Origin: a virus
Length of the DNA: 29,536 nt
Virus record (IMG/VR): IMGVR_UViG_3300021389_000105
Coordinates: 1-29,536 of that record
Strand: one strand, 5' to 3'
Below are positions 1 to 23,931 of the stretch, piece by piece. Position 1 is the stretch's first letter. Every line of letters begins with the position of its first letter. Both the position numbers and the translations under genes were made by a program. Below the pieces are notes generated by a model. It was not told where the DNA came from. It saw only the letters and a program-made list of their open reading frames with translations, and did not search any database.

Positions 1-2002
1 CAGGAGGCATCGAAAAATCATCTGAGTTTATCTCTGATTTAAAATTTTTAGGTTTATTATTAACACCTACTGCTTTTAATTTTTTTGGAGTAGCTGTAGT
101 TATTCCTGCAAAAGGATTATAGTTATGAGCATTTCTTAAAGGAGTTTTTGTAGTAAGATATTTACCTACTTGTTTTACATTATCTACATTTCTTACAGCT
201 GTGTTTTTTAATCCTTGTTTTAAACCAAGTTTTAATACATCATCTGCTACACCTGCACCTACAAGATTCATTGGATCTGTTATTGCATCAAGAGCAAATG
301 CTCCATATGGGTTCTCTACATTAAATACTTCAGATGGTGTTCTCTGTGTATCAAATGTAAGTGCATTTAAAAAGTTAGCATCTCTACCTCTTAATGCTTC
401 TATACCCTCCACCATGAGTGATTGAGGAGTTTGTAATGCAGCTAAAGGTTGTTGCACTAACATACCTGTCACCATATCTCTTGTATCTTCTGCAAGTCCT
501 TTCTTAGTTTGAGCAGCTCTTCTTACACCTCTACCAATAGGGCCATCATCATTAAAGTATTTTCTTTGCTGTGCACTTAAATCATTATAGTAAGGATACT
601 TCTCATAGTCTACTCCTGAGTATATTAATACTTCATCTAACGGATTAGGAACATCTGCAAATGTACCTTCTTCATATGCTTTTTTATATTCAGGTGTACC
701 ATACATTACTATTCCACCTTGAGCTTTAGGTACGTCACCACCATTTTGGTAATATTTTCTAGCTTTTTCTAAATACTCTTCTGGAGTTTTATTAGATTGT
801 TTAGCATTTGGTCCATAAACATTAGGCAAAGCTTCAGCTAGTGGTTTGCCATCTCTTATAGCATATCCTAAATATTTACGTGTTCCACCTCTACCTATAA
901 AATTAGATAACACTGCTAAATCTTCTTTACTATATGGAAAGTTTTTTATTTGAGGAGAATAGTCATTATATAAATCATTAGCGTCTTGTAATAGCGATGT
1001 AGTTTCTGAAGCCTCAAGTCCATCATAAAATCTTCTTTTAAAAAACTCTTTTTGAGCTACTGTATCTTTTGAAAACTCTCTTCTGGTTCCAGGATAATCA
1101 TTTCTAATTTCACTAAATCTCTGACCATATAAACCTGTAGCTGTAGATTCTGGATTCAACATAAGTTTCCCATCTAAACTTTCTACATTTCTAACAGCTC
1201 TTTGAACACTGTCAAAGTTTACATCTTGACCATTTTGAGCTTTCTGACAACTGCCTTTACTAAAAGGTGTCTTACCAGCAACTGTTTTATATCCTGGCCA
1301 ACATCTTCCACCATTTTTAGCTTGAGTAGGTTCTTCAGGAGTTGTTCCAGACGTACGTGCATACATCATTCCTGTAGCTCCTGGAAGACTACCTCCCATT
1401 TGGTATTCTTTTAATACATTTGTTCCTTTCTTGTAATTTTTAGCAAACCATTGAGCTATTTTGTCATTAGGAAACTTAATACCTTGTGCCCTTCCTTCTT
1501 CTCTAGATACTGCTTTCAATTGTTTATCATCACCTTCCATCACTCTAGGATAAACATAACCATCTCCATCTTCCATAAAATGTGTAGAAGGCTCTGTTTG
1601 TCCTTCTAAATAAAACTCAGGGTTCTTCTCATAAAGTCTTTGCACCCAACGCTTATCCATATTAGCATTAAGTGTAGAGTCAATATATTTTTTATTTAAT
1701 TCTAGTCCATTTTGAGCAACTGGTCCATTCCATGCAGGATTATACCCACTTGGACTATTATCATATCCCCATCCTTTGAATCCAGGAGGAAGAGATACAT
1801 TACTATCATTGTAGTTAGGTTGTACGCTACCACCATCGTTATATTTATCTAACCAACCACCATTAATCTTTTTTAATGGTGTAGCTCCATCAGCAATACT
1901 TCCAAAAAACTTCTTTTGTTTTTCAGTGAGAGGTTTACCTTTTACGTAACCATCTTTAAGTATCTTTTTAGCTTTTGCTGCTGATAAACCTTTCTTCTTC
2001 AT
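1..2002 (-). CDS. Putative cargo / internal virion protein (3' end cut by window edge)
   Basis: The frame is open from an ATG at 2002-2000 to the window edge (667 codons); I spot-checked it for stops and found none. The start overlaps the stop of the upstream gene as TAATG. The N-terminus is basic and reads like 'KAKKILKDGYVKGKPLT..QKKFFGSIA.G', a pattern I recall from large internal virion proteins of crAss-like and other Bacteroidota phages. About 230 residues in is a Cys motif, 'GGRCWPGYKTVAGKTPFSKGSC', which I also associate with that group. In crAss-like phages such proteins ride in the capsid or tail and are ejected with DNA, and their genes follow the muzzle gene, as here. No enzymatic motif is seen. 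The cargo role is inferred from position and N-terminal pattern; the C-terminus is outside the window. Confidence 0.7.
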   Translation of the reverse strand, partial: MKKKGLSAAKAKKILKDGYVKGKPLTEKQKKFFGSIADGATPLKKINGGWLDKYNDGGSVQPNYNDSNVSLPPGFKGWGYDNSPSGYNPAWNGPVAQNGLELNKKYIDSTLNANMDKRWVQRLYEKNPEFYLEGQTEPSTHFMEDGDGYVYPRVMEGDDKQLKAVSREEGRAQGIKFPNDKIAQWFAKNYKKGTNVLKEYQMGGSLPGATGMMYARTSGTTPEEPTQAKNGGRCWPGYKTVAGKTPFSKGSCQKAQNGQDVNFDSVQRAVRNVESLDGKLMLNPESTATGLYGQRFSEIRNDYPGTRREFSKDTVAQKEFFKRRFYDGLEASETTSLLQDANDLYNDYSPQIKNFPYSKEDLAVLSNFIGRGGTRKYLGYAIRDGKPLAEALPNVYGPNAKQSNKTPEEYLEKARKYYQNGGDVPKAQGGIVMYGTPEYKKAYEEGTFADVPNPLDEVLIYSGVDYEKYPYYNDLSAQQRKYFNDDGPIGRGVRRAAQTKKGLAEDTRDMVTGMLVQQPLAALQTPQSLMVEGIEALRGRDANFLNALTFDTQRTPSEVFNVENPYGAFALDAITDPMNLVGAGVADDVLKLGLKQGLKNTAVRNVDNVKQVGKYLTTKTPLRNAHNYNPFAGITTATPKKLKAVGVNNKPKNFKSEINSDDFSMPP

Positions 2003-2874
2003 TACTTATAGCTTATTTGTGCTGGTGTAACAATAAATTGACTTACTAAGTGAACAGTTGACCTATTGTCAAGAATATGTCTAACCTTTAAATCTTTTGC
2101 TCTTAGAGTTGCTTTCTTATAAGTTTTTGGTCCATAGTCCATGTTAGACTGATTAACCACTTTATCTAATGATTTAGATGAGCACGGTGTATTAAACAAA
2201 GGAAGCCTTATATCTTTTTGAAGTGCCCAGAAAGTATTATACTGATAGAAGTTATCACTCTTTGTGTATATAATAGTTTTACTTTCTTCGTTTAATATAG
2301 GATATTTTCCATATGCTGCCAAATTATTTTCAGGCTTTGGGACAAGTTCTAATATACCTGTAGACTGTTGACCGTTAAACAGTACAGCTTTATTAAACCA
2401 TTCATTATCAACTTGAACTCTACGGTTAGAGTCAAACTGTTCTGTCTCACTTGGATAATACACATATGCCTTAGTGTAATCTTTTACATTCTGTAATATC
2501 TCATCCTGATATTTGTAAGAGAAAGGGTACTCAATTATATAAGGCTCTATTACACCATAGAAATAATTGTATATAGATTGATTTGTTAAATGTGTCCATA
2601 AACACCCTGTACCATCTTCTGAATAACTAGTAGTAACCCACTCTTGATTTGTTATATTTTTTAACTCAACTATAACTTCAAAATCACAACTACCCTTTGA
2701 TTTAATTTTAATAGCTGTTGCATCTTTATCTATTTCAAAAGATATCCCTTCTATCAATTGCTCTTTAGTCACATCAGATAACAAAAGAACATCTTGTAAA
2801 TCTAATATATCAAAAGGTCCTTCATTAGAACCAGATGATGTAAGCTTTATTGATATTGTTTTTGTATTTGCCAT
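2002..2874 (-). CDS. Muzzle C-terminal-part-like protein with N-terminal anchor module
   Basis: This 290-aa protein starts at the ATG at 2874 (MANTKTISI), 10 nt after the muzzle stop. A longer frame from a TTG at 2904 would overlap the muzzle gene and is less likely. Residues 4-70 form a beta-rich domain ('SIKLTSSG....GPFDI...IKIKSKGSCDFEV') shared with three genes at 12.1-15.9 kb. Residues from about 75 on ('FNKAVLFNGQQSTGILELVPKP', 'IIYTKSDNFYQYNTFW', 'LRAKDLKVRHILDN', 'QFIVTPAQISYK') match what I remember as the C-terminal part of single-gene muzzle / stabilisation proteins in Bacteroidota phages. Here that part is a separate gene right after the muzzle gene. It probably assembles with the muzzle at the tail tip. 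Homology is from memory, not alignment. Confidence 0.7.
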   Translation of the reverse strand: MANTKTISIKLTSSGSNEGPFDILDLQDVLLLSDVTKEQLIEGISFEIDKDATAIKIKSKGSCDFEVIVELKNITNQEWVTTSYSEDGTGCLWTHLTNQSIYNYFYGVIEPYIIEYPFSYKYQDEILQNVKDYTKAYVYYPSETEQFDSNRRVQVDNEWFNKAVLFNGQQSTGILELVPKPENNLAAYGKYPILNEESKTIIYTKSDNFYQYNTFWALQKDIRLPLFNTPCSSKSLDKVVNQSNMDYGPKTYKKATLRAKDLKVRHILDNRSTVHLVSQFIVTPAQISYK

Positions 2875-2884
2875 TCTTAATATA

Positions 2885-5800
2885 TTACGGGGTACATGGT
2901 CCAATTAATGTTCCTCCTAAAGGTGCTACACTTGCACATATAGTAGCTGAGTTTCCTGACGCTACAATTAATTCTTGTGTATTTCCAAAACAATCTGTGT
3001 AAAATATTGCAGTAGGTCCTGCTACTTCATATTCGTTACATGTTGGTGAAATAGTAGTTGTGGTTGTTGTAGTTGGAACAGGAGTGGTTGTAGTTGTTGT
3101 TGTAATTGAACAATCTCTTCTATCTGTTATAACTCCACTTTCTACTTTGAATACAGAATTTCTTCCTAAATATGATCCTTGAGTAGAATACCAACCATCT
3201 GGCACAAATGTACAATCATTACCTGTTCCATCATAAATTATAGAATTTATACTTAAACCAGTTGCAGGATCATACATCACTTGTCTAAGTATAGGAAGTG
3301 CTGATGAAGGTGGTACACCAAGATAAATTAAAGATGCAGCATCACAAGCGTCTTGAGAATTACCTGTACTCGTAACAGCAGGGTTAGGAGCTTCTTGATA
3401 ACCTTCTAAAAAGTCATCTACAATTAATCCACTTGGTCTTGTACAAGCTGTAGTTGTTGGAGGAATTGTTATTATAGCAGTTCCTTCTAATTGGCAACTT
3501 GTTGGTGTAAATACTCCAACTGATAATTCACAATCTGGTTCTTGAGTTGTACTTGTAGTTGTTGTAAATAATGGAGGTGATGTTGTTGTAGTTGTAGTGG
3601 TAATTATTACTGGAGGTTCAACTTCTCCAGCTATAACTTCAAAATTAGGAAGACCATCATCAAAGTCACAACATCCATTCTTTCCTGAATAGAAAAATGC
3701 ATTATCTGCTATATAAAAGTTTGGAAGATATGAGTGAAAAGATACCCAGCTTTGTATATTAAAATCAAAAGATAAAGTCCATGATTTATTACAAAAGTAC
3801 TTCTCATCTTTTAAAGATATAATTCTTTCTAAACCTGCTGCATCTGTAATGTAAAATGAATCATTAATTTCATCATATTGGATATCTTCTGATAATGGAG
3901 CATAGTCAAGTTTAGTTATAATTATTCTCTCAAATCTACTATCATATACACCGTGTAAACCAATACCGTTAAAATTATTATCTATCTCTACATTAGCAAA
4001 AGTTCTTAATATATGAAATGGAAGTTCATCTTTCATAAACTTATTCACTCCAGAATTAAATGCTGTCAAGTCAACAGCTTTTCCTGCAATTAAAAATACT
4101 TGACCTCTTTTAGCATCAATAGTAACTTGACCTTGAGGTATCTTTAGCATAAATTTATGTTGTGAACCTACATAACCAAGATCTGTTTCAGCAAAATCAA
4201 TTGGTGGAGATGAACTAAATAAATTAGGATTACCAATATAAGCAGCCTGAGGGTTACTAGTATCGATAGTTAGTAAATTATTATACAATAATGACTTGTT
4301 TTCAAACCTTGCAAGTATTGCTTTATTCTGAATACCATCTAACGATGTTAAATCTCCATAGTTTTGAGGAAAGTCGTAGAAAGATAAAGCTCTATATACT
4401 AACCAATTATTAACTCTATTGTCAGCATTAGCTGTAGTTGGATCAGAGTATATTGCTCTAAATGGAAAATTAGTAAAACAAAAATCTTCTTTCCAATCAG
4501 GTGGAAGATGTGTAAAAACATTCTCTTTATTTTGCTTAGAGAAAGTTACATTATAGTAATATGTGTTGTCTTGTGCAATTGGTACATTACTTTCTTGTAC
4601 CCAGTCATCAGGGATACCACTGCTTACATGTGGCCAGAAGTCTCCTTCTTTATTATTAAATGCTTGACGTAAGTCTGTATTGTATGTACTTTCACAATAG
4701 AAGTTAGGTACACCATATGCAAACATATAAATATATCCATCATAAAATGTTCTAGCAGAGCCTTCTCCTGGAGCTATTGCAGATGGATCGTTAGGACAAT
4801 CAAAGTTGTGGGCTTTGTATGATATAATATTTCTCATTGGTACATCATCACCATCCTCTGTCACAGTGTAGTCTTCTAAAATAGATCTTGCAGAGTGCCA
4901 GTATTTTGGATAAGCAATATTACCTATTTCATCGTAAAATATATCACTATCATCAGGAGCATTTACCCTATTATCAATAAAGAAAGGGAGTTTAGTTTTA
5001 TATGTAAATCTAGAAATAAATACATCTCCTCCGAAAACAATAGCTGTGTCAGAATTCCCAACTAATGATTGATATCCTGTATCAATAGTTTCATAAGAAT
5101 AAATCTGACCATATTGATTAACTATGATGTTTTTCATAGAAGCATAATATGATACTACAGATAAGTCTTGCTCTTTACTAAATGCACCACATAAAGAATT
5201 TTCACTAATTGTAAATCTAGATCTATCAGTAATATTAGGACTTATTCCAGATGGATTAATACTAGGTGTATCACTTGGAAAAGGAATAGGTGTAACTTCA
5301 GAATCATCTTCTCTCTTTTCTTTTGTTTTGATAAATACAGAACTTTCTCTATTCCAATTATTAACATCTAATTCGTCACTTCTTAAAGATTGTACACCAG
5401 GGATTAAATATCTAGTAAAATCAATATCTCTTTGTTTTATTCCATCGTTTACATTATTTTCAATGTCAAGAGAATAATCATAATTTGCTCTAGAATTGAA
5501 AGACATTCCGTAATTCTTTCTAGTAATACCATTTACATATATTGTTAAATAAGATTGGTATACAGTAAACATTACACCTGCATTAAAATCATCCGTAATT
5601 CCTGCAACTTCTTCTGAACTATTCAAAGCATCTATCTGTGCTTCTTTAGATAAAAGTTTATACTTAGCATTATCTTTAACTTCTACAAAGTGACCCTTAC
5701 CTCCACCAAACATGACACTTTCAAGTTTCAATACACTTCCTAAGAAAGGTTGTCCAAAAGATGTTTCTGGTGAATTAAATATTTGTCTATAAGAATCTTT

Positions 5801-8494
5801 TTCCTGTAAAGCTGGTTGAGGTTCTGATTTAGTGCAATCAATTTTAGATCTTCTACCTCCTTCAGACAAAGGTAAAATAACTCCTATTTCTTGTTCTGTA
5901 GAATTTGTTAAAACCTTAGTAAGTTCACAAGCACAAAGACCTGATCCTGAACAATCATCTGATATAGAACTTCCAACCTTAACTCTAACGTATGTAGAAT
6001 CACACCTTCCAAGTGGAATAGGACAATTATTATTTGTTAGCCATTCCCTCTTGCTTTCATCAAGTGTATTATCATCAGTAAAAGGATCAGTCCAAAATAT
6101 TGCAAAACCTTTGCCTCCAGCACAAGATGAAGCATAATAAACATCATAATTTGCTGGCCCAATCAAACATACACCTTTAAGTGTTGTAGGTTTTTCCAAT
6201 GCACAAAACTCAATAGTTTCACCTAATTCAATATTTTTTTCTAATACTTTATTTGTATTAACATCATAATATTGAATTATAGCATATCCTAAGTCATCAT
6301 TTATTTGCTCACAGGTTACTAACCAAACTTCTGCTTCAGAAGAATATGCATTGTTAGTCTTATTTAAAAAAGGATCTTTGCGTAAATCATTATACGGATA
6401 GTTAGGATAATAGTAATCTTGCTCATCTCTTGTATACTTATTTACATTTCTAAGCATACCTTTTGCAACAATAGATTTGTTTGTACCTCTATTGCCTCTT
6501 ACTATTTTATATCCAACAATATCATCTTTCTGATCAGATGTTAGTCCTGATGATAATATTAATGCATTAATTTGACTATTGTCTATTCTTATACCTATTG
6601 GAAAAACAGCAGTATCCTGCATTTCAGGAATTATTTCTTGAGTAACTACTAAATCTTCATCTTCTTCTACTGTTTCTGAATTCTCACATTCGTTTGGTGT
6701 TTCTGTTACTATAGTGTAAGCAAGTGACCCTCCTTGCCTACTTATTGATCCCTCTTGTGCACAAAAATTTGGAGTACTTGAATCTCCTGGTACTATTTCA
6801 TCCTCTATCAATTCACCGTTACAATCCCTATATCTATATATTAAATCTTCAACAAGATCATAATTTTCAATACTGTACGTAAGACAGTTTGTTGGTGTAG
6901 CATTAGTATCATCGCTGGTATTTTCTACAACTGGTCCATATTTTATTTCTCCGTTTTCAATAATAGGACTTACTGCTATATCTGGAAACTTGTGATGTCT
7001 AATCTTTTGTCCTGCTAAATCTCCCCATACATCATCATTACAAGGATACTCTTCTGTAGATTCCCAATAAGCTAATTCACCATATTGATATGGTCCTTTG
7101 TAGTTTTCATCATTAACGTAATCTGGAGAAAATCCTGTTAAACTTGCTGTATTATAAATTTTCCAATAAGGAGAGTAACCAATGTCTCCAACTTGATAAT
7201 CTGGTTCACCTATAAAGTCATTGTTTGTAGAAGGTACATCAGGATACCCATCACTATTATTCTTTTCTCTACCAGGAATGTGAAACCCATCAGTTTGTTT
7301 ACCGTTCTTTAGTAAGAACACTATCTCAAATGCATACACTTCATCACGCATGTATCCACGTAAGTTTGTGGCATTTAGTTCATCTGAGTAATCTTCATCT
7401 GGTGGTATTCTGTATGTTTCCCATCCTAAAGTTATATTTGTTGCAATTGATTGATAGTTTACTCTATCAATAGATGTAAGATTGTCCCAAACAATAACAT
7501 CTTGCACTGCTGTAACATCTTGAGCTATATCATAGTAAGGAAACTTTTCAAATATATCTGATGTGGAAAGCTGTATAGCAGTTTTATCTGCTCCTGTATA
7601 TGTTACTTCTTTAGATGCTTCTTCAATATTGTATGTTCCAATAAGTTCTACTGAAGAGACGTTGTTTATTGTCTTAATTACAGCCAAGTTAAAATATTGA
7701 AACTGTCCTGTTAAATCAAGATTAGATATGCCTACAACAATAGATTTTCCTACATTATAGTTAAAATTTACTGTTGTCTTGAACTCATCAGCAATAGGAG
7801 TTGGATTAGTTATAGAATAATATGAAGTGAGTTCATTACCTCCAGAATCAGAATACTGTATTGCAAACTGATAAGTACCAGCAACTAGATCCCCAATGTT
7901 TAGTACATCTACAATATTTAGATTAGGAATAGAGAAGTTTGGTTGAATTTTAAGTTGATTACAATCTAACTCATCTCCATATACAGGATCACAACTAGGT
8001 GTACCTGCTACAAGTTTGTAAGGAATATTCTCAATGTCTAAATACCTTCTTGGATTTTTACCATCTGTCCAATATATTTCTGTAGTACAGTTAGTTATTC
8101 TATGAACTATTTTAGGAATAGGATGTTTTATGTCAAAATTTAAACAAGAGGAATTAACTAATGTTTGATATTGACAATCATTGTTATCCATAAACCCTAT
8201 CTCACTACCTTCTATTTTAGGGTTTACTAAGAAAAATATATGCTTTCTTTTTTCAGGTATGTAATATTCTCCAATAAGTTTATATCCTTTTGGAAATGTA
8301 AGACATAGCTCATTACCTAACTCATTTTGATAACTTACAGAATTATCATCAAAGTTCTCAACAGCAGCATTTAAAGCATAAGTCACCTTACCTGGTCCAA
8401 CTTGACTAACTGAACTATCTAAATTTAATCCTGCTTGAGCACTTCCTGGATTAAGTCTTATATTTCCTTGATCTTTTGATTTTTCTTCAGCCAT
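2885..8494 (-). CDS. Muzzle-like (P22 gp10-like stabilisation) tail protein with C-terminal modules
   Basis: At 1869 aa this is the largest protein here. Its N-terminus has the pattern 'GLNLDSSVSQVGPGKVTYALNAAVE...NELGNELC', followed by 'GYKLIGEYYIPEKRKHIFFL' and 'IYWTDGKNPRRYLDI'. I associate these with the beta-rich muzzle / packaged-DNA stabilisation proteins that close the tail of crAss-like podoviruses. The body runs to about residue 1622 ('SWVSFHSYLPNFYIADNAFFYSGKNG'). It is followed by about 245 residues of unrelated style: poly-Thr linkers near 1630-1655 and 1795-1815 separating Cys-bounded small domains ('ACDAASLIYLG...GVITDRRDC', 'TCNEYEVAGPTAIFYTDCFG'). The muzzle's usual C-terminal part is missing and appears as the next gene. 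The gene starts 5 nt after the preceding stop, so it is part of an operon. Role in gating DNA exit is inferred from the family. Confidence 0.75.
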   Translation of the reverse strand: MAEEKSKDQGNIRLNPGSAQAGLNLDSSVSQVGPGKVTYALNAAVENFDDNSVSYQNELGNELCLTFPKGYKLIGEYYIPEKRKHIFFLVNPKIEGSEIGFMDNNDCQYQTLVNSSCLNFDIKHPIPKIVHRITNCTTEIYWTDGKNPRRYLDIENIPYKLVAGTPSCDPVYGDELDCNQLKIQPNFSIPNLNIVDVLNIGDLVAGTYQFAIQYSDSGGNELTSYYSITNPTPIADEFKTTVNFNYNVGKSIVVGISNLDLTGQFQYFNLAVIKTINNVSSVELIGTYNIEEASKEVTYTGADKTAIQLSTSDIFEKFPYYDIAQDVTAVQDVIVWDNLTSIDRVNYQSIATNITLGWETYRIPPDEDYSDELNATNLRGYMRDEVYAFEIVFLLKNGKQTDGFHIPGREKNNSDGYPDVPSTNNDFIGEPDYQVGDIGYSPYWKIYNTASLTGFSPDYVNDENYKGPYQYGELAYWESTEEYPCNDDVWGDLAGQKIRHHKFPDIAVSPIIENGEIKYGPVVENTSDDTNATPTNCLTYSIENYDLVEDLIYRYRDCNGELIEDEIVPGDSSTPNFCAQEGSISRQGGSLAYTIVTETPNECENSETVEEDEDLVVTQEIIPEMQDTAVFPIGIRIDNSQINALILSSGLTSDQKDDIVGYKIVRGNRGTNKSIVAKGMLRNVNKYTRDEQDYYYPNYPYNDLRKDPFLNKTNNAYSSEAEVWLVTCEQINDDLGYAIIQYYDVNTNKVLEKNIELGETIEFCALEKPTTLKGVCLIGPANYDVYYASSCAGGKGFAIFWTDPFTDDNTLDESKREWLTNNNCPIPLGRCDSTYVRVKVGSSISDDCSGSGLCACELTKVLTNSTEQEIGVILPLSEGGRRSKIDCTKSEPQPALQEKDSYRQIFNSPETSFGQPFLGSVLKLESVMFGGGKGHFVEVKDNAKYKLLSKEAQIDALNSSEEVAGITDDFNAGVMFTVYQSYLTIYVNGITRKNYGMSFNSRANYDYSLDIENNVNDGIKQRDIDFTRYLIPGVQSLRSDELDVNNWNRESSVFIKTKEKREDDSEVTPIPFPSDTPSINPSGISPNITDRSRFTISENSLCGAFSKEQDLSVVSYYASMKNIIVNQYGQIYSYETIDTGYQSLVGNSDTAIVFGGDVFISRFTYKTKLPFFIDNRVNAPDDSDIFYDEIGNIAYPKYWHSARSILEDYTVTEDGDDVPMRNIISYKAHNFDCPNDPSAIAPGEGSARTFYDGYIYMFAYGVPNFYCESTYNTDLRQAFNNKEGDFWPHVSSGIPDDWVQESNVPIAQDNTYYYNVTFSKQNKENVFTHLPPDWKEDFCFTNFPFRAIYSDPTTANADNRVNNWLVYRALSFYDFPQNYGDLTSLDGIQNKAILARFENKSLLYNNLLTIDTSNPQAAYIGNPNLFSSSPPIDFAETDLGYVGSQHKFMLKIPQGQVTIDAKRGQVFLIAGKAVDLTAFNSGVNKFMKDELPFHILRTFANVEIDNNFNGIGLHGVYDSRFERIIITKLDYAPLSEDIQYDEINDSFYITDAAGLERIISLKDEKYFCNKSWTLSFDFNIQSWVSFHSYLPNFYIADNAFFYSGKNGCCDFDDGLPNFEVIAGEVEPPVIITTTTTTTSPPLFTTTTSTTQEPDCELSVGVFTPTSCQLEGTAIITIPPTTTACTRPSGLIVDDFLEGYQEAPNPAVTSTGNSQDACDAASLIYLGVPPSSALPILRQVMYDPATGLSINSIIYDGTGNDCTFVPDGWYSTQGSYLGRNSVFKVESGVITDRRDCSITTTTTTTPVPTTTTTTTISPTCNEYEVAGPTAIFYTDCFGNTQELIVASGNSATICASVAPLGGTLIGPCTP

Positions 8495-8499
8495 AGTTC

Positions 8500-9468
8500 T
8501 TAATTATTACGTCTTCTACCATATCTGTTAGTACGGTTAGGAAGTTCATACTTATTGAACCTGTTTAAATCTTTTTTAATTCTTCGTTGTTTTTCCCAAG
8601 ATGTTTGCTTCTTTGACTCAGTGAAAGCTATAATCCAAGCCTCATCGCTAAGTTGTTTATAATAAGCTAACTTTGATTGTAACTGATTAAATGTTTCGTC
8701 ATTTGTTTGATTAGTAAGAGTCTCAAATACTTTATATTTAATAAATGCCTCAACATATTCTGCAATCCTGTAATTATCTGGTATCATTTGATTACCAGAA
8801 TCGTCATAGTCTGTGGAATAAAAGAGTAAATGAATTACAGCATGTCTAAAGTTCGTTACAAATTTATTGTCTCTAATATCGAAGCTATCGTAACTTGATG
8901 AACCAGGAGTAAACTCACGCATAGGTGGTGCAAAGTTATTCCAATCACTTCTGTAATTAACATCGCATTGACTTCTTGCTGATATGTTTCCTGGTCTAAG
9001 TAAATAATCATATCTATATGATCTAGCAATCTCATTGTTTGTTTTATACACAGCTTGAACTAGTTCAGGCATACATGTACCATCGCATGCTGGATGTTGG
9101 CATTTAGGATTGTTGCAGGGAGTTCCACCTATTGTTAGTGGAGATATTTGTATAGTTGTTGCATTTGCAGCCTGAGAATAAAAAGATGTTGCTGAGGGAT
9201 AAGGATTTCCTGGAACCTCTGCACACATCCATGCTTCCCTCACTGCATGAAAATTGTCAGGAAGTCTTGATTGAAAGTCTTCTACAAACAAAACTTGCTC
9301 ATCTATTTTGTAACTTGTTTTACCTAACTTATTTAAACATTTGTTTAAGTATGTTGGAAATAATAAATCATCTACTGCTCCTGTATCAAAGTAAGACTTT
9401 AATTCTTCTTTTACTGTAGCGTAAATAGGTTCTGGTGAAACAAAATTATATTTATGATAGTATGACAT
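8500..9468 (-). CDS. Conserved structural protein, probable ring / tail-hub component
   Basis: A 322-aa soluble protein beginning 'MSYYHKYNFVSPEPIYATVKEELKSYFDTGAVDD', with a Cys/His cluster near residues 117-132 ('CNNPKCQHPACDGTC') that could bind metal. The C-terminus is helical and strongly basic (ends 'RTNRYGRRRNN'). There is no signal peptide or membrane segment. It lies between two other conserved small genes and the muzzle gene, where crAss-like phages carry ring proteins that join portal to tail, so I infer a tail-hub or ring role. The overall sequence pattern is one I recognise from crAss-like structural modules, but I cannot name the ring it belongs to. It starts 2 nt upstream of nothing but the previous stop, so it is co-translated with its neighbours. 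Confidence 0.6.
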   Translation of the reverse strand: MSYYHKYNFVSPEPIYATVKEELKSYFDTGAVDDLLFPTYLNKCLNKLGKTSYKIDEQVLFVEDFQSRLPDNFHAVREAWMCAEVPGNPYPSATSFYSQAANATTIQISPLTIGGTPCNNPKCQHPACDGTCMPELVQAVYKTNNEIARSYRYDYLLRPGNISARSQCDVNYRSDWNNFAPPMREFTPGSSSYDSFDIRDNKFVTNFRHAVIHLLFYSTDYDDSGNQMIPDNYRIAEYVEAFIKYKVFETLTNQTNDETFNQLQSKLAYYKQLSDEAWIIAFTESKKQTSWEKQRRIKKDLNRFNKYELPNRTNRYGRRRNN

Positions 9469-9470
9469 TT

Positions 9471-9956
9471 CTAAAATCTTTTAGTCCATTCGTTATATAT
9501 ATGTTGGTATTTTTTATCTGTGTTTACATAATGTGATAACAATCTAGATGTTACTCTTGTAGGTTTAAAGAACCAACACTCTGAATGTCTGAATCTTGCA
9601 CTTCTGTTAAACCACATCCATCCAAAAAAATAACCTTCTGTATGATAGTTAAAGTTATAAATATGTTTACCTTTTTCTCTAGTTTTTTTCCAGTCAATAG
9701 GTAGATTTATAAATTCTTTACCATTATTAGATTTTATTTTTTTCCTTTTTTTCTTGTTTATTGAAAACTCTCCAAATCCACAAGGTAGTTTTTCTCGATT
9801 TCCTGTTTCTAATATATGATATTTAAACTGTTCATTAAATTCATATATTATATTTTTCCACTCATTAAAAGTTAAGTTTACAAGTGGGTTATTTTTACAA
9901 AAATCTTTGTAGTTATCTTTACTTGCACTTCTCCAATCTACAGGAACTCTTGGCAT
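9471..9956 (-). CDS. Conserved phage protein of unknown function (161 aa)
   Basis: A 161-aa basic protein, very rich in aromatic residues and lysine. It begins 'MPRVPVDWRSASKDNYKDFC', carries the lysine tract 'NKKKRKKIKS' near residue 90, and ends with the motif 'FRHSECWFFKPTRVTSRLLSHY'. The latter looks strongly conserved to me among Bacteroidota phage structural operons, but I do not know its function. No enzymatic motif is visible. Basic charge and a place between ring-type genes suggest DNA binding or an assembly role near the portal vertex. Spacing is 5 nt from the gene above and 2 nt to the gene below, so it is in the same operon. Confidence 0.55.
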   Translation of the reverse strand: MPRVPVDWRSASKDNYKDFCKNNPLVNLTFNEWKNIIYEFNEQFKYHILETGNREKLPCGFGEFSINKKKRKKIKSNNGKEFINLPIDWKKTREKGKHIYNFNYHTEGYFFGWMWFNRSARFRHSECWFFKPTRVTSRLLSHYVNTDKKYQHIYNEWTKRF

Positions 9957-9961
9957 TTAAT

Positions 9962-10687
9962 TTAGTTTGTTGGTTGAGCATTAGGTGCTTGGCCATCAAT
10001 GCCCTCATTACTCATATCTGATTTTATATTAAAATATGTACTTAAGAGCTTTGTAGATGTCATAGCTAAAGTTTGTTGCTCTAGATACCCAGGAACAAAA
10101 GACTCTTTATCTAATGGGTTCATACAATACTCATCTAAAGTATAATTTGTACCACATTCACAATCTGGATACATTATCTGTTTAGTTACATCTTCTTCAA
10201 ATAGTGCGACAAATCTTACAGCTTGAAGCAATGGGTTACTTACATATAAATATCCATTAGATATCCAAAAATAACTTTCTTTTTTAATTATAGGAAGTTT
10301 TAATAAGTTTAAATATCTATTTACAGTGATTTCTTTTATTTTAGTACCACTTCCTCCCATTGCATTTATTGAATAAACACCCTGAATAACATACTGATAA
10401 TTACCTTCAGATATTCTTGGAAGTTTATGTTTTGATCTGGCCACAGTACATGGGTCAACATAGTCACAACATTCAGATATGGGAACTTCTATCATTTCTA
10501 AACAAGGAATTGTAGTAAACAGTGTATCACTGGCCCACAATCTTCTCAAGTTAGTTTCTCTTTTAATTAAAGTTAATGCGTTTAGTTTAACCTCAGACGC
10601 AATTGCTCTATCAGTTATAAGTGCGTCAGTAGATAAGATTTTATGTGTTGATCTTACATCTGAAACTAATTTTCTAAGAGTTGACAT
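9962..10687 (-). CDS. Conserved structural protein, probable ring / head-tail connector
   Basis: A 241-aa protein beginning 'MSTLRKLVSDVRSTHKILSTDALITDRAI'. The middle has 'ISECCDYVDPCTVARSKHKLPRI', then a likely beta-strand region ('NYQYVIQGVYSINAMGGSGTKI', 'YFWISNGYLYVSNPLLQAVRFVALFEED') and a second Cys pair, 'DCECG'. Helical ends with a beta middle and an operon place upstream of the muzzle gene match the ring / tail-hub proteins of crAss-like phages, and I recognise this pattern as conserved in them. The exact ring is uncertain. The stop of the preceding phosphoesterase gene lies 2 nt upstream of the ATG. Confidence 0.6.
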   Translation of the reverse strand: MSTLRKLVSDVRSTHKILSTDALITDRAIASEVKLNALTLIKRETNLRRLWASDTLFTTIPCLEMIEVPISECCDYVDPCTVARSKHKLPRISEGNYQYVIQGVYSINAMGGSGTKIKEITVNRYLNLLKLPIIKKESYFWISNGYLYVSNPLLQAVRFVALFEEDVTKQIMYPDCECGTNYTLDEYCMNPLDKESFVPGYLEQQTLAMTSTKLLSTYFNIKSDMSNEGIDGQAPNAQPTN

Positions 10688-10689
10688 AA

Positions 10690-11922
10690 TTATATTCTTT
10701 TTTCAAATTCACATTCCTTACCTTTTTCTTTATTGTATCCTAGAAGAAGTGCAGCTCTTATGGAATGTACATAACCGCTATCTCTATGCCATTTATCAGA
10801 ATCCGATAAACTAGGCATCTGTTGTATTCTACAACCTTTTACTTCTTTTGCCATATAGTGATGTTTATCCCCTGTATGGACTTCTTGATACTTAGAGTCT
10901 CCAAACATCTTTCCGTATACAGGATGTGTTGCAAATAACAACGGTAAAGACTCTATTTTACAATTACCATGATGATATCCAATAAATGTATTTCCTAAAG
11001 TTAATGCTTTTATTGGTGTACTGTCTCTTAAAAACTCTACATCTTTATCATCCTTAAAATAAATCTCTAAAGCATGAGCTAAATAAAATGACTTAGTTTT
11101 ATCATGATTGCCAGGAACTAACACAACAATAACTTTATTAGAATATGTTCTTTGAATATTAATAGAGTCTATAAGAATAGAAAACCCTAACTCATACTCA
11201 GAGTCATATTCCATTATAACATCTTGAGGAGTTCCGTTTGTAGTTTGATTTTGGTAATTGTCTGTATGAAAGAAGTCATTAGATATTGGAAATATAACTG
11301 TATCAATATTATAAACTCTTGCAGTTTTAATTATTAATTCTTCTGTCATTTCAACAAAAGTTCTAGCTCTTTTCTCTATACTATTATTTCCTTCAATATA
11401 TTTTTTAGCTAAGTGATAATCAGAAATAGACAACTCAACATCTATTGTACTTTTATTAGCATCTAATTTGGTTTTGTTTATTTCTACCTTAGAAGGTTTG
11501 TAGTTTTTTAAAAACTTTGAAAAGTCTTCAGCATTATAGTCATCAGGTCCTTTTCTTTTGGAAAAAATAGAAGATGTAAACTTACCACTAGGTAGCATCT
11601 TAGACCAATAGTTAGTAATAATATACTCTTCTAAATTTATTTTATGAAGCTTTGCTAACTCTAAATGATCTTTAGGTTCGTAATCAGATGTAATTGTACT
11701 TTCAATAGTGCCTTTTTCTACATTAACTTTTTTTACAGTTGTAGAGTTTTTTTCTGAATTTTTATAAAATTCATAATCCTTAGGGTCACTTTTTTTAATT
11801 TCTTTTATTAACTCAACTACTTCCTCTTCTGTGATGTTTAACTTTTCAGCGTAAAACTTTTTACTTTTTTTCCAACGAAGTAGATTTTTTAATTTCTCTA
11901 GTAGACTTGGGTCGTTAGTCAT
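10690..11922 (-). CDS. HTH-fused calcineurin-like metallophosphoesterase
   Basis: A 410-aa protein. Residues 1-45 look like a helix-turn-helix ('KFYAEKLNITEEEVVELIKEI'). Residues about 55-150 are a Lys-rich connector. From about 160 on the metal-binding motifs of the calcineurin-like family are in order: D168-x-H170, N215-D216..H219 with D221-N222, G271-N272-H273-D274, H317-H318-G, and G351-D352-x-H354. All look intact, so it should be an active phosphatase, nuclease or phosphodiesterase with two metal ions; the substrate is unknown. It is the first gene of the third transcription unit, preceded by a promoter-like site and an A-rich leader (AAAAAAAATG). Similar proteins occur in Bacteroidota phages to my knowledge. 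Its place at the head of a virion operon is unusual for an enzyme. Confidence 0.85.
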   Translation of the reverse strand: MTNDPSLLEKLKNLLRWKKSKKFYAEKLNITEEEVVELIKEIKKSDPKDYEFYKNSEKNSTTVKKVNVEKGTIESTITSDYEPKDHLELAKLHKINLEEYIITNYWSKMLPSGKFTSSIFSKRKGPDDYNAEDFSKFLKNYKPSKVEINKTKLDANKSTIDVELSISDYHLAKKYIEGNNSIEKRARTFVEMTEELIIKTARVYNIDTVIFPISNDFFHTDNYQNQTTNGTPQDVIMEYDSEYELGFSILIDSINIQRTYSNKVIVVLVPGNHDKTKSFYLAHALEIYFKDDKDVEFLRDSTPIKALTLGNTFIGYHHGNCKIESLPLLFATHPVYGKMFGDSKYQEVHTGDKHHYMAKEVKGCRIQQMPSLSDSDKWHRDSGYVHSIRAALLLGYNKEKGKECEFEKRI

Positions 11923-12098: not shown

Positions 12099-14684
12099 TT
12101 AAGGTGGACAAGTACCCCAAATAGGTTTGTTAGCTGGTGTTAATAAAGAACCAGTACTAAAACCACCAGGTTCTGAAGTAATATTTGTAACACACCAACC
12201 TGTTAAATCTTGATTAAAAGACGATGCGTTGTTAAACATATTCTGTAAAAAAACAGAGAATATTACTGCACTTACATCCCATGCACCAACATCTTGATTA
12301 AATGATGGAGCATCTTTAAACATCTTGCCAAAATTAGTACAACTTCCTGTAGACCAATTCGAAATATTTCCATTAAAAACAGTATTAAACTCAAACATGC
12401 TATTCAAATCATTAACGCTACTCACATCCCAAGTATTCAAATCCTGATCAAAAATATCATTATTGGAAAACATACTACTCATATCATTCACATTAGAAAC
12501 ATCCCAGTTATCTATTGGTTGATTAAAAGCTTCTGCGTATGCAAACATGTTAGCCATAATAATTACACTACTTGTATCCCAACTATTTAATGGCTGATTA
12601 AATAATAATGTCCTAACGAACATAGCTTCCATATCAGTAACACTACTTACATCCCATGCACCAATAGGTTGATTAAAAGATTCTGCACCAGTAAACATCT
12701 GATTCATATTAACAACATTACTTGTATCCCAAGAACTAATATCTTGATTAAAATCGTCTGTCTCAGAAAACATCGTACCCATATTAGTAACATTACTAGT
12801 GTCCCAACTACTTATATCTTGATTAAAAACAGTTGCAGTATTAAACATACTATCCATTCTAGTAACACTACTTACGTCCCAATTATTTAAAGATTGATTA
12901 AAAGAGGAAGCAGAAAGAAACATACGTCGCATAGTAGTCACACTACTCACATCCCATGCATTTATGTCCTGATTGAAAGATGATGCATTAAAAAACATAG
13001 ATTCCATATTAGTAACACTACTCACATCCCAGGTGGAAATATCTTGATTGAAAGATGATGCATTACCAAACATGTTTTCCATATTAGTTATGTTTGAGGT
13101 GTCCCAATTACTAATATCGTCATTAAAATTCGCAAAAGCACTTGGAGGAAAACGCTCATAAAATATCTCGCTCATATCAGTAAGTTCAGGACACATGCTC
13201 CAATTATTTATAGGTCCATAATCTATTAAAGCTTGAGCGTTATCAGTTACCCATAATAGTGCTGCATCTTTTAGTTGTTGATTAGTAGAAAACTGACAAC
13301 TGAAAATTGTTGTTGTTGTGGTAGTTGTTGGGGCACATTCTATTTGTCCACTTGTAACATCATTACAATTTGTAATGTCTAGTATTTCTGTATAGCATCC
13401 ATTAATAGGTGCGTATATTTTATTTCCTATTACCAATGCATAATATGCTACATATGGAGAAAAATCAATTACATCAAATGTATAAAATATCGAACCATCT
13501 AAGTTTAATATTATATTATAATAAGATGGTGTACCATTATATTCTGTAAAATCTCCCTGTATATATATTTTATTATCCCATATTATTGTAGATAAATAAG
13601 TATTAGCATTAAAGCCTGTTCCAAAATTAGCAGAAGTATCTATAGAACCATCTTCATTTAATTTTATAATATAGTTTGCTGAAACGCCATTATAAGATGT
13701 AAAATACCCTGTCACATAAAAAGAAGTTTCATTTGCGTATCTGATAAAATAATTAGGATTAGTGGCAAGGTATGGATTAAACCCAGTTCCTCCGTTAAAC
13801 GAAGGGTCTAATGCTCCTGTAGAAGTTAGCTTTGTTATTCCAGGTGATACAGGTGTTCCATTAAATGTATTCCAATACCCTAAACAAAATATTGAGTTGT
13901 CAGGGTTTATTAAAACGTCAGTTCCTGTATTGCCTCCACCTGAAAAACCTGAACCAATCGCAAAACTAGGGTCTATTGTTCCATTAGATAGCAACCTAGC
14001 AATACGACTAGATGGTGTGCCATTATAACTATCAAACAATCCTGTTACAACTATTGACCCATTAGAATCTACTTTACATCCTTGAGTATAATTAAATATC
14101 GCACCTGCAAACCCTGAACCGTAAACAAATGAAGTATCAACTGTAAAATCAGAATTTAATCTAATTATTTTATTAGCAGCAGTTCCATTATAGTCTGTAA
14201 ATGAACCTGTAAATATTAATTTACCATCAGGTTGCTCAACCATAGATTCTCCAGTATAATAGACACCAGTAAAACCTGTACCTATATTCATACTCTGATC
14301 AATAGTTAAATCATCATTTATACTTATAAATGAGTTACGTGTAAATGATGTAACACTATCGGTGTATTCATCAAAGTTACCATAGAAATATGTTTTATTA
14401 GGTTTAAATATATAATCTAAAAAATACATATAGTATAAATCAGCACTAAGCTTGTAACATAGATTTGATACATCAATATCAATTTCTACAGGACATTCTT
14501 GAGTTGTAGATACACATCTAATTATTGTAGTACCAGCAGGTATTTGATCACTGGGAAAACCATCTAACAAAGACTGTCTAGAAACATTGGTTTCAAATGC
14601 TGATAAATAGTTGTCTACATCTGAGTATAGCAAAAAGTTATCAGCATTAATGCCTATGTTTAATATTTGAATTATTCCTGTCAT
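12099..14684 (-). CDS. Modular tail fibre: anchor domain, delta-60 propeller, poly-Thr linker, DUF285/BspA-like repeats
   Basis: An 861-aa adhesin built from four parts. Residues 1-78 are the anchor domain shared with three other genes. Residues about 95-440 hold about six repeats near 55 aa with the pattern 'GxxxxYNGT......I.RL..DG.ID.SF..G.GF', the delta-60 type expected to fold as a beta-propeller. Residues 453-459 are a 7-Thr linker flanked by cysteines. Residues 520 to about 835 are 13 copies of a 25-aa repeat, 'FNQDIS.WDVSSVT.M..MF..A.S', the BspA/DUF285 type found in bacterial surface proteins. It probably projects from the virion and binds the cell surface. It starts 3 nt after the preceding gene and ends just before a strong terminator. 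The repeats look bacterial in origin, which suggests transfer. Confidence 0.85.
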   Translation of the reverse strand: MTGIIQILNIGINADNFLLYSDVDNYLSAFETNVSRQSLLDGFPSDQIPAGTTIIRCVSTTQECPVEIDIDVSNLCYKLSADLYYMYFLDYIFKPNKTYFYGNFDEYTDSVTSFTRNSFISINDDLTIDQSMNIGTGFTGVYYTGESMVEQPDGKLIFTGSFTDYNGTAANKIIRLNSDFTVDTSFVYGSGFAGAIFNYTQGCKVDSNGSIVVTGLFDSYNGTPSSRIARLLSNGTIDPSFAIGSGFSGGGNTGTDVLINPDNSIFCLGYWNTFNGTPVSPGITKLTSTGALDPSFNGGTGFNPYLATNPNYFIRYANETSFYVTGYFTSYNGVSANYIIKLNEDGSIDTSANFGTGFNANTYLSTIIWDNKIYIQGDFTEYNGTPSYYNIILNLDGSIFYTFDVIDFSPYVAYYALVIGNKIYAPINGCYTEILDITNCNDVTSGQIECAPTTTTTTTIFSCQFSTNQQLKDAALLWVTDNAQALIDYGPINNWSMCPELTDMSEIFYERFPPSAFANFNDDISNWDTSNITNMENMFGNASSFNQDISTWDVSSVTNMESMFFNASSFNQDINAWDVSSVTTMRRMFLSASSFNQSLNNWDVSSVTRMDSMFNTATVFNQDISSWDTSNVTNMGTMFSETDDFNQDISSWDTSNVVNMNQMFTGAESFNQPIGAWDVSSVTDMEAMFVRTLLFNQPLNSWDTSSVIIMANMFAYAEAFNQPIDNWDVSNVNDMSSMFSNNDIFDQDLNTWDVSSVNDLNSMFEFNTVFNGNISNWSTGSCTNFGKMFKDAPSFNQDVGAWDVSAVIFSVFLQNMFNNASSFNQDLTGWCVTNITSEPGGFSTGSLLTPANKPIWGTCPP
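12219..13127 (-). repeat. 75-nt tandem repeat encoding the DUF285-type repeats
   Basis: Between 13127 and 12219 there are twelve complete in-frame units, eleven of 75 nt and one (12302-12219) of 84 nt with a 3-codon insertion; a partial 13th unit follows from 12218. The first codon of each unit is Phe, followed by Asn-Gln/Asp. The units differ by many silent and replacement changes, so the array is old or diversified, not freshly expanded. Confidence 0.9.
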
Positions 14685-14687
14685 ATA

Positions 14688-15677
14688 TTATTGTAGATCA
14701 CAAGATAAATTATCATCACTGCATTGACTTATTTCTTGAACACTATTCCCACTTACAATTCTAAACATTCTAAGTAAACCTGAAGCAGCTGCTGCACTAG
14801 TTGTCGTATTAGTATTTGCATAAGCGTACCATCCTGCTGTTAATGTAGCACCTTGTATAATATCTCCAGGTGCTAATGTCCAGAAAGTATGACCAGATAC
14901 AGTAGTTTTCTGAGTAGGTATTGAGTAGTTGTTTTGACAGAAGTCAGGACATTGACTTTGTACACCACTAATATATAAGTCAGATGTTACGTTACATGTA
15001 GCTATGTTAGTAATTTCACCTGAAGCATTTCCTTGTAAAACTATTTGATTAGTGGCACCATTTGGATAATCTACTTTATAATATTGTCCAACATTAAATG
15101 TGAATGGGTTTGTTCTAGCAGAATCAGTATAAACTATATTACCTACAGCAAATGTATTGTTTTCAACATATACAGTTGAGAAAAAAGAATCAGAACAAGC
15201 GGCAGCTTCAGTTAAATTAGATGAAGTCATCAAATAACCAATCGGTGCTTTAGTTGTACTTGTTGTAGTAGTGGTTGGAGGTGCAGTAGTTGTTGTTGTT
15301 GTTGTACTAGTGCTACTTGTTGTTGTAGTAGTAGTTGGTGGTATAGTAGTAGTTGTTGTCGTAGTACTACTTGTACTTGTTGTTGTACTTGTAGATGATG
15401 TAGTAGTTGTTGACGTACTAGAACTAGTAGTTGTTGTTGTTGTTGGTTGACATGTATTTTCTAAATCAATAAATGTATCACATGATCCAGTAGATTGAAC
15501 TCTAATAAATGTTGTTCCATCAGGTGGAGTTGTAATGTATCCTGGAGTTAAAAATTCAGAAGCATTAATTCCTATCTCAAAAGGTGTTGTATATCCATCT
15601 ACATTTGAGTATAAATCAAAAGGACCTACTTGAGACCCTGCTGGTATAACTAATGATATTTGTATTTCTGGTTGCAT
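14688..15677 (-). CDS. Modular Thr-rich virion appendage protein
   Basis: A 329-aa protein. Residues 1-76 are the anchor domain ('ISLVIPAGSQVGPFDLYSNVDGYTTPFE...FIRVQSTGSCDTFIDL'). Residues 79-142 are almost only Thr and Ser, broken by IPP and APP. Residues 147-230 and 230-329 are two Cys-bounded domains ('VYVENNTFAVGNIVYTDSARTNPF...GEITNIATC' and 'GWYAYANTN...FRIVSGNSVQEISQC') related to the small domain in the muzzle tail. The likely role is an outer appendage with its N-terminus fixed to the virion, a stiff or glycosylated spacer, and tip domains contacting the host or surface sugars. Function is inferred from the layout and from the neighbouring adhesin genes. Confidence 0.75.
   Translation of the reverse strand: MQPEIQISLVIPAGSQVGPFDLYSNVDGYTTPFEIGINASEFLTPGYITTPPDGTTFIRVQSTGSCDTFIDLENTCQPTTTTTTSSSTSTTTTSSTSTTTSTSSTTTTTTTIPPTTTTTTSSTSTTTTTTTAPPTTTTTSTTKAPIGYLMTSSNLTEAAACSDSFFSTVYVENNTFAVGNIVYTDSARTNPFTFNVGQYYKVDYPNGATNQIVLQGNASGEITNIATCNVTSDLYISGVQSQCPDFCQNNYSIPTQKTTVSGHTFWTLAPGDIIQGATLTAGWYAYANTNTTTSAAAASGLLRMFRIVSGNSVQEISQCSDDNLSCDLQ
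15252..15443 (-). repeat. Low-complexity tract encoding a 64-residue Thr/Ser linker
   Basis: An imperfect ACA/ACT/ACC and Ser codon run within the appendage gene; on the plus strand it shows as GTT/GTA/GTG triplets. Mixed synonymous codons argue that the amino acids are selected, not just the DNA repeat. Confidence 0.85.
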
Positions 15678-15690
15678 ATTGTTGTTTTTT

Positions 15691-15906
15691 TTATGTCAAA
15701 GGTATATCTATATAATTAACACAGTCTTCAAGAGCTTGAACTCTTACAGAAGTAGCATCATCAGGTATTATAAATTCTGTACCTGCAGTTAAAAATGCTA
15801 CAGGAACATTTGAACTTACAGGAGTTGTAAAACCATCACTGTCTGAATATATATCAAGATTTGATATATCGGTACCTGCTGATGTTAATGTTATTTCTAC
15901 TGTCAT
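15691..15906 (-). CDS. Stand-alone anchor domain (71 aa)
   Basis: The whole 71-aa protein is one copy of the anchor domain seen at the N-termini of the genes at 2002-2874, 12099-14684 and 14688-15677 ('ITLTSAGTDISNLDIYSDSDGFTTPV...TEFIIPDDATSVRVQALEDCVNYIDI'). It has no linker or tip. It overlaps the stop of the upstream membrane-protein gene as ATGA and lies next to two of its larger relatives. It may cap unused attachment points on the virion, or be the remains of a fibre gene that lost its distal part. I favour a real gene because the reading frame, start and spacing are good. Confidence 0.75.
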   Translation of the reverse strand: MTVEITLTSAGTDISNLDIYSDSDGFTTPVSSNVPVAFLTAGTEFIIPDDATSVRVQALEDCVNYIDIPLT

Positions 15907-22374: not shown

Positions 22375-23931
22375 TTAGAATTGTGGAATCTCTTCGATTA
22401 ACACAGTTCTAGATAAATCCTCAATAAATACATCACAACGATCTTTCATCCAGATTTCGTACCCTGGGAATTTATTAGCAGAGCTCATACCTTGAGACTT
22501 AGCAAATCCTAAGTGGTGACGAGTTCCATCAATATAACCCCAAGTCATAGAAGGTGCACCCTTCATACGTACTTCACGGATATTGTTAATCATTGATCCA
22601 TCAGATTCAGGTGATACATCAAATACCATAAATACAGGAGTAGACTTTTTGTTTTGTCCAAATTCCAAGTTAGTTTGTGGTAAATCTAACTCTTTTAAGT
22701 GAACAAGTTCCACCTTACCTGTTTCTCTTGTAACCATTGCATCAAATGCAAAGTTATAGGTAATGTTTTGTCCTTGTCCTTGTAAGTATCTGTCTCCAGA
22801 ATCTGCCATGAAAGTTAATCCAGAGTTTAATGCATCATCTTTTAAAGCTTGTTGGAATACATCGAATCCAGCTTCATTAGTATACATTTTAACTCGTCTA
22901 TCTTTAACGTCCACTCGTCTGTAGAATAAATCTCCAAATACTGAACGTATTAAGTTAGCAGAAAACTCTCCACGGTTATACTGTACTAAGTTACCGTTAT
23001 TTCTCATTCTGTGGTATACACCAGCAGAAGTTCTTTTTAATTCTTGTCTAGAACCGCTAGTCTTGACTGTTCCAGGCTTAGCCCAAATCATTCTCTTAAC
23101 TTTAAGCTCAATCATAGACTTACGCATCCAGAATTCAACAAAAGGTTCCCACTTAACATCATTACGAGTTAATGGTAACTGATTACGTCTCTGTGGAGCA
23201 TATACTAGAATGTCTAAAGGTTTACCTGAAGTATCTCTTAGCATTTTATCATCTGCCCATTCTGTGATTTTGTGCTCATAACCATATCCAGAACCTAATG
23301 ATTCGAACATTGTTATTTTCTCACCTAATCTAGGAAGACCTAATAAATCTTGATCAAATTCTCCAATTGCAGCATCAATCAATTCTAATTCAATACCTAC
23401 TTGTAGGAATGTAGAAGAAATGAAATCTACAGTTGGGTTATCACTTACTAATGTAACTGTGTATAACCATCCTGCATTCCAAGGCTGTGGATCTTTTATT
23501 ACATATAGACGTGGTCCATACTGACGTGTTCCTACAGAAATAATGGCGTTTTTAGAGAATTCGTTTGTATCTATTACAATTTGAAACTCTTGACCATCGA
23601 TACCTGGCTTAGCTAAATCATTTGTAGCTTCAGGAATATCAATAATTACTGGAAATTTGTAAGGTACTGAGATATCCCATTTCCAAGAATCACTATTCGT
23701 ATCAATAAAGTACGGTGTGCTCTTGTTAATCATATCTAAGAAATCATTGCTATACAATGATGATTGAGTATACAGACTGATAATTTTTTTATCATAATCT
23801 GCAGGCTCTGTCGAGTGGAAACTTTCCAAGTGATTAGCGTCTGTAAGTTTACCTACAGCACGTTTATCCATGGACGCAACTCTCGCATAAGTAAAACCAG
23901 TTAATCCTGGTATAGTTTGAACGTTTGACAT
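22375..23931 (-). CDS. Major capsid protein
   Basis: A 518-aa protein that I recognise as the HK97-fold major capsid protein of crAss-like phages by overall pattern and place. Visible markers are 'FLDMINKSTPYFIDTNSDSWKWDISVPYKFP', 'DFDQ.LLGLPRLGEKITMFESLGSGYGYEHKITEWADDKM'-like central segments, 'VYHRMRNNGNLVQYNRGEFSANLIRSVFGDLFYRR', and the C-terminal 'KFPGYEIWMKDRCDVFIEDLSRTVLIEEIPQF'. The length suits the family. No signal peptide and no obvious propeptide. It follows the acidic scaffold-like gene by 29 nt and precedes a structured spacer that may shape its mRNA. Confidence 0.85.
   Translation of the reverse strand: MSNVQTIPGLTGFTYARVASMDKRAVGKLTDANHLESFHSTEPADYDKKIISLYTQSSLYSNDFLDMINKSTPYFIDTNSDSWKWDISVPYKFPVIIDIPEATNDLAKPGIDGQEFQIVIDTNEFSKNAIISVGTRQYGPRLYVIKDPQPWNAGWLYTVTLVSDNPTVDFISSTFLQVGIELELIDAAIGEFDQDLLGLPRLGEKITMFESLGSGYGYEHKITEWADDKMLRDTSGKPLDILVYAPQRRNQLPLTRNDVKWEPFVEFWMRKSMIELKVKRMIWAKPGTVKTSGSRQELKRTSAGVYHRMRNNGNLVQYNRGEFSANLIRSVFGDLFYRRVDVKDRRVKMYTNEAGFDVFQQALKDDALNSGLTFMADSGDRYLQGQGQNITYNFAFDAMVTRETGKVELVHLKELDLPQTNLEFGQNKKSTPVFMVFDVSPESDGSMINNIREVRMKGAPSMTWGYIDGTRHHLGFAKSQGMSSANKFPGYEIWMKDRCDVFIEDLSRTVLIEEIPQF

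Follow-up and report, generated by a model that had tools for sequence, protein, structure and literature searches.

A crAss-type muzzle encoded by two adjacent genes throughout a clade of environmental phages, with a co-varying cysteine pair at the cut

The closest described counterpart of the locus analyzed here is the muzzle protein gp44 of phage crAss001 (PDB 7qok and 7qol; Pfam family PF25731), which is composed of a ring-joining domain, a seven-bladed propeller, two Ig domains and a crass domain, gating being assigned to blade 4 of the propeller (PMC10172136). Insertions into crAss muzzles are known to vary the protein surface, and in the crAss001 tail the barrel and the fibre hubs are joined by inter-protein disulfides (PMC10172136). 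The published length variations of gp44 are found in its crass and IG2 regions, whereas the insertions described below are located in two late-propeller turns. The muzzles of gut crAss phages, including crAss001 gp44, are annotated as one gene, and a split muzzle was not reported in any of the open-access papers searched. The propeller proteins gp12 (nozzle) of T7-like phages and gp10 of P22 resemble the muzzle in the fold of their C-terminal half and in their role as a gate; both are single chains and have no crass domain. A parallel for the splitting itself is the insertional fission of the mitochondrial cox2 gene, in which an insertion divided one gene into two complementary genes, although that case concerns an organelle enzyme and no virion component (PMC5374615).

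The window, i.e., the complete stretch of 29,536 nucleotides of IMG/VR virus record IMGVR_UViG_3300021389_000105, contains a muzzle gene (part 1) which scores 149.2 bits against the Pfam model crAss_MUZ (PF25731, curated cut-off 27) and thereby carries the N-terminal signature of the family. As in crAss001, it adjoins a ring-protein gene, located upstream at 8500-9468 (27.8 bits against CrAss_Ring_1, cut-off 27), which is the gene order of the muzzle family. Homology to gp44 extends over the N-terminal region, the late-propeller core and the C-terminus; gp44 is one chain, whereas the gene of the clade described here is cut. The original prediction, made from the nucleotide sequence, had described a muzzle of 1869 aa ending in about 245 residues of Thr linkers and Cys-bounded domains, followed 10 nt further by a second gene, and both statements were confirmed: the ORF at 2885-8494 (minus strand) ends in about 245-260 residues of Thr-rich linkers with two Cys-bounded modules, and its stop at 2885 is followed by the ATG of gene 2 at 2874. 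All features are compiled in Table 1. A DNA-repair exonuclease-like gene (10690-11922; PHROG 704, E 6e-48) is situated amid the tail genes of the window.

Table 1. Coordinates of the muzzle genes, their domains and further ORFs carrying the C domain within the window.
Feature	Position	Strand	Evidence or remark
Muzzle part 1, 1869 aa	2885..8494	-	PF25731 crAss_MUZ E 2e-43; PHROG 37948/15100
Part 1 content: ring/propeller, Ig-like and crass region homologue, variable C-terminal tail	2885..8494	-
Core block A, residues ~905-1544	3863..5782	-	hhalign P 96, E 1e-9, to gp44 from ~966 into late propeller
Block B, residues 1559-1610	3665..3820	-	HMM 5e-31; hhalign 1.9e-4; corresponds to gp44 ~1190-1234
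Cys1608-Cys1609 (..SGKNGCC), end of conserved core, beside the cut	3668..3673	-	co-variation with gene 2 Cys91
Variable tail of part 1	2888..3664	-	Thr linkers and Cys-bounded modules
Thr linkers of part 1 tail	3545-3601, 3050-3103	-
Cys-bounded modules of part 1 tail	about 3110-3445 and 2894-3040	-
10-nt gap, part 1 stop to part 2 ATG	2875..2884	-	translational coupling likely
Muzzle part 2 (gene 2), 290 aa, ATG at 2874	2002..2874	-
C domain, gene 2 residues 1-85, Ig-like beta-sandwich	2620..2874	-	AF2; HMM matches in other ORFs
Cys63 of C domain	2686-2688	-
D domain, gene 2 residues 90-290, equivalent of single-gene muzzle C-terminus	2005..2607	-	PHROG 15100 1585-1781/1783; hhalign to gp44 1237-1362
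Cys91 of D domain	2602-2604	-
Adhesin-like protein: N-terminal C domain, DUF5122 propeller repeats, DUF285 repeats	12099..14684	-
Protein with N-terminal C domain	14688..15677	-	HMM
71-aa ORF, essentially a free-standing C domain; two larger C-domain proteins follow directly downstream	15691..15906	-

The conserved C-terminal region of the family was found in trans. Part 1 lacks the approximately 200 C-terminal residues conserved in single-gene crAss muzzles, and residues 87-288 of gene 2 match columns 1585-1781 of the 1783 columns of PHROG 15100 (E 3e-8), which represent the extreme C-terminus of the family. By tblastn the same segment was located at the C-terminus of the single-gene muzzles of Lbo-JY46, csAssE-Sib and FpV4. 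The assignment of a muzzle C-terminus to the 290-aa gene, which the original prediction had made, is thus substantiated, and in the alignment that it had called for, full-length homologues do contain the gene 2 segment. Both segments are present within one ORF in Leptolyngbya phage Lbo-JY46 (1654 aa), csAssE-Sib (2257 aa), Cellulophaga phi17:2 (2289 aa) and Flavobacterium FpV4 (1961 aa), and five more viral loci (L174-L178) have a single-chain muzzle as well. In the closest single chains, the Epsilon/Lightbulbvirus and Lbo-JY46 muzzles, which are the nearest unsplit homologues, block B (window residues 1559-1610) runs straight into D (gene 2 residues 90-290); unlike the split proteins they have neither C domain nor junction cysteines nor cut. 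Gene 2 is highly conserved with a mean column identity of 72%, and the invariant columns lie mostly in D. Since a phmmer search of the window muzzle against PDB sequences gave no match, profile and fold comparisons were needed for the structural assignment.

The split is found throughout a large clade. In a first set of 121 complete loci the cut between B and D was present in 121/121. An enlarged, de-duplicated set comprised 203 ingroup relatives and 10 loci outside the clade, and here all 203 clade members are split at the same point and all 10 outside loci are unsplit. D as a separate ORF adjoining part 1, together with the C domain, is kept in each of the 203 split loci. The usual state of one polypeptide, which is not part of the profile definition of the family, is therefore replaced by two ORFs in 203/203 relatives and by three in 29, where a second cut between A and B results in a three-part muzzle whose middle ORF begins just before B and carries modules. 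On a tree of A, B and D the B|D cut requires a single change (support 100). Six changes are needed for the A|B cut, of which supported branches force five, and 11 for the A-B site when insertions are counted together with cuts; the tree was built quickly and its outgroup branches are long, which leaves the order of the outgroups unsure and the separation of ingroup and outgroup unaffected. On this tree the B|D cut has a single origin, and the split is the ancestral state of a large clade and not the accident of one phage. The split is real and clade-defining, and marks a member of the muzzle family, orthologous to the single-gene muzzles, with a new architecture.

All split members are metagenomic. 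Neither a search with the Lbo-JY46 C-terminus as query nor a scan of bacterial genome contigs yielded relatives, so that the latter links no host to the split clade. The major capsid protein of the window (22378-23931) had one match in 50,697 phage records (Lbo-JY46, 27% identity), and the clade is accordingly almost absent from the searched phage collection.

Both cuts are situated near the end of the propeller as known from crAss001 gp44. In hhalign comparisons the alignment of A begins at gp44 residue 966 and reaches into the late propeller, B corresponds to gp44 residues 1190-1234 and D to 1237-1362; the B and D alignments are each weak on their own (E about 2e-4) and are collinear with A. 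The cuts map to gp44 turns at about 1187 (..SFYDKNNNDVYFTY..) and about 1235 (..EFYAFKDGKMWEQ..). A late-propeller fold like that of gp44 was seen when the unsplit relative L177 was modelled with AF2 (pLDDT 53 overall, 75-86 in much of the propeller part): the best match of the model is the crAss001 muzzle 7qol/7qok (Foldseek E 4e-9), followed by T7-like and P22-like nozzle proteins, and model residues 187-622 superimpose on gp44 1050-1366 with VIA Z 11.7 (7qol) and 11.3 (7qok). When gene 2 was modelled alone (AF2), the C domain folded (block pLDDT 65-90, mostly 76-90) and D did not (pLDDT under 50), which fits a fragment that depends on its partner and equally a shallow alignment. From its terminal position D would close the propeller and join the ring. 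The unsplit muzzle of phi17:2 carries an unrelated insertion of approximately 280 aa without Thr linkers between A and B, indicating that the A-B turn takes insertions independently.

The sequences at the cuts are modular and highly variable. The tails after B comprise 11-1686 aa with a median of 286, and TTTT is present in the tail of 198/203 relatives. Among the modules at the cut sites are Fib_succ_major (E 1e-20 to 1e-33) and, below threshold, an Lcl_C-like domain. The longest part 1 tail (1686 aa; L134, 8840-13897) had no Pfam match at E 0.01. Comparisons of close relatives illustrate how fast the modules turn over: in L137 and L139, with 96.7% identity in the core, the tails measure 300 vs. 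80 aa, L021 and L022 (93.9% identity) have 27 vs. 138 aa between A and B, and for L023 and L029 (90% identity) the values are 242 vs. 25 aa. After splitting at the Thr linkers most modules merged into one chained cluster, hence no module count is claimed. These findings support the view that modules were inserted at one point and left a two-part muzzle, as had been anticipated. In L162 three whole genes, each consisting of C domain, Thr linker and modules, are located between the muzzle halves, and extra ORFs were found at this place in L123, L130 and L135. Those of L130 are a C-domain gene, a gene with fn3/Fib_succ_major and a small nucleotidyltransferase-like ORF (9763-10141; GSYLHG..DYD, judged by eye).

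Position and turnover of the modules suggest that they may contact the host. Alternatively, they could be structural spacers or a protective decoration and not host-recognition domains, as might be expected from the fact that most of them have no Pfam match. We regard this as rather unlikely in view of the rapid gain and loss between close relatives, the Fib_succ_major or Lcl_C-like modules at the same sites and the common occurrence of the C domain in adhesin-like genes. The C domain of gene 2 recurs at the N-terminus of three window ORFs, including the adhesin-like one with DUF5122/DUF285, and in the other C-domain ORFs of the relatives it is N-terminal in 47/49 cases; gene 2 thus resembles the front part of such an adhesin-like gene joined to the muzzle end. 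The anchor-type N-terminal domain that had been predicted for gene 2 is in agreement with this distribution. In fold comparisons the C domain gave weak Ig-like matches only, the best being 8gl8_D, the CTD of a type 9 secretion (T9SS) substrate (Z 6.1, 65 residues), and the similarity possibly reflects a common fold only.

A link between both genes was found directly at the cut. The conserved core of part 1 ends with SGxN[GD]CC and D begins with xxC[LIV]W[RT]H. In 157 of the 203 split loci the first Cys of the CC motif and the Cys of D occur together, and the other 46 have neither, without a single exception; both are lacking in 10/10 unsplit muzzles. On a tree built without the cysteine columns each Cys of this pair changes four times, at matching places, and the changes are joint in all four inferred events; the three independent pairs on supported branches all agree, and with only three to four independent co-changes a sign test is unable to reach 0.05. 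The mutual information between the first CC Cys and the D-Cys amounts to 0.772 bits, which is the maximum and the best value of 934 columns (next: 0.48). The cut is thus flanked by paired cysteines which are gained and lost together, and these co-varying junction cysteines, which were not part of the original prediction, are a new result of this analysis. As both residues would be neighbors in an unbroken hairpin, an inter-chain disulfide is the simplest reading, with Cys1608 of part 1 and Cys91 of gene 2 as the proposed staple residues. The 46 loci without the first pair indicate that this staple is not essential. The second CC Cys and Cys63 of the C domain occur together in 201 loci and are both missing in two, which represents one event; the same two loci also lack a Cys in block A, hence a second inter-chain bond is suggested at most, and the C-domain Cys is found in stand-alone C domains, too. 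At least one of the two pairs is kept in every split locus. For the A|B cut no cysteine staple was detected, a Cys near either side being present in 5/29 loci.

It could be argued that part 2 has become an independent tail adhesin or anchor and that part 1 alone is a working muzzle, since the N-terminal C domain is common to adhesin-like genes of the same window. This is improbable: in every split locus D lies beside part 1 and is strongly conserved, no other D-type sequence was found, and the cysteine co-variation links it to part 1 exactly at the cut.

Still less credence can be given to a programmed frameshift or stop read-through near 2885-2904 which would join the ORFs into one polypeptide. 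The frame overlap at 2885-2904 that had suggested a fusion by a +1 shift near the muzzle stop does exist in the window, the gene 2 frame being open up to 2904 and sharing 20 nt with the end of part 1; the relatives, however, do not conserve it. The frame relation is 0 in 28, +1 in 59 and +2 in 34 loci, in 43/121 a stop closes the gene 2 frame within 12 nt upstream of the ATG, and gene 2 begins at a conserved ATG. With a varying frame relation and stops closing the upstream frame a conserved slip site is impossible, and frameshift fusion as a general mechanism was rejected. A sequencing or assembly error at 2885-2904, likewise considered at the outset, was dismissed as the split recurs in 203 distinct loci. 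In most loci gene 2 starts -4 to 15 nt from the part 1 stop, the bulk of the gaps measuring -1 to 12 nt, and coupled translation is suggested by motifs such as TAATATG and TAATG. Equally remote is a self-splicing intron or a (split) intein between the halves with a mature muzzle of one chain. Both elements are abundant in crAss-like phages (PMC7886860), but no Rfam match at the gathering threshold (Rfam covering known introns) was obtained for the window and six relatives, no intein or homing domain was found with Pfam and NCBIfam, and the modules are Thr-linked and closed by a normal stop while gene 2 has its own start and domain; on these negatives both were rejected.

The reading we prefer, with a probability of roughly 0.8, is that the two genes are halves of one crAss-type muzzle which reassemble, are usually stapled by a disulfide at the cut and display modules at the tail tip. 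In the distant past, in the ancestor of this large environmental clade, Thr-linked display modules and a C-domain cassette would have entered a turn of the late propeller, where the reading frame was cut permanently. Part 1 since then ends in modules, and part 2 consists of C fused to the last approximately 200 residues of the muzzle. The two genes would be translated successively and their chains would reassemble into one muzzle, so that the hexameric gate at the tail tip would be encoded as two halves. In most members a disulfide would connect the first CC Cys of part 1 with the Cys located where the conserved sequence of part 2 begins. From the tail tip would hang the modules, which turn over fast and probably serve host contact. 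Probable as well, with somewhat less confidence, is the more specific notion of cut-and-staple, according to which the propeller is broken into two and repeatedly three chains at module-docking turns, and the disulfide pair, which appears only in split muzzles and seems to be gained or lost as a unit, replaces the backbone link.

Annotation pipelines will show a short 'hypothetical protein' in place of the muzzle C-terminus in such genomes. The muzzle is among the most conserved parts of crAssviruses and must hold back DNA and cargo until infection. Here its propeller is broken at a site of module exchange, and yet the muzzle is retained across a large environmental clade. The resulting model, in which tail tips gain surface domains while the gate is kept, can be tested and specifies the residue pair between which an inter-chain disulfide is predicted. 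An essential virus part may thus be opened to carry changeable surface modules.
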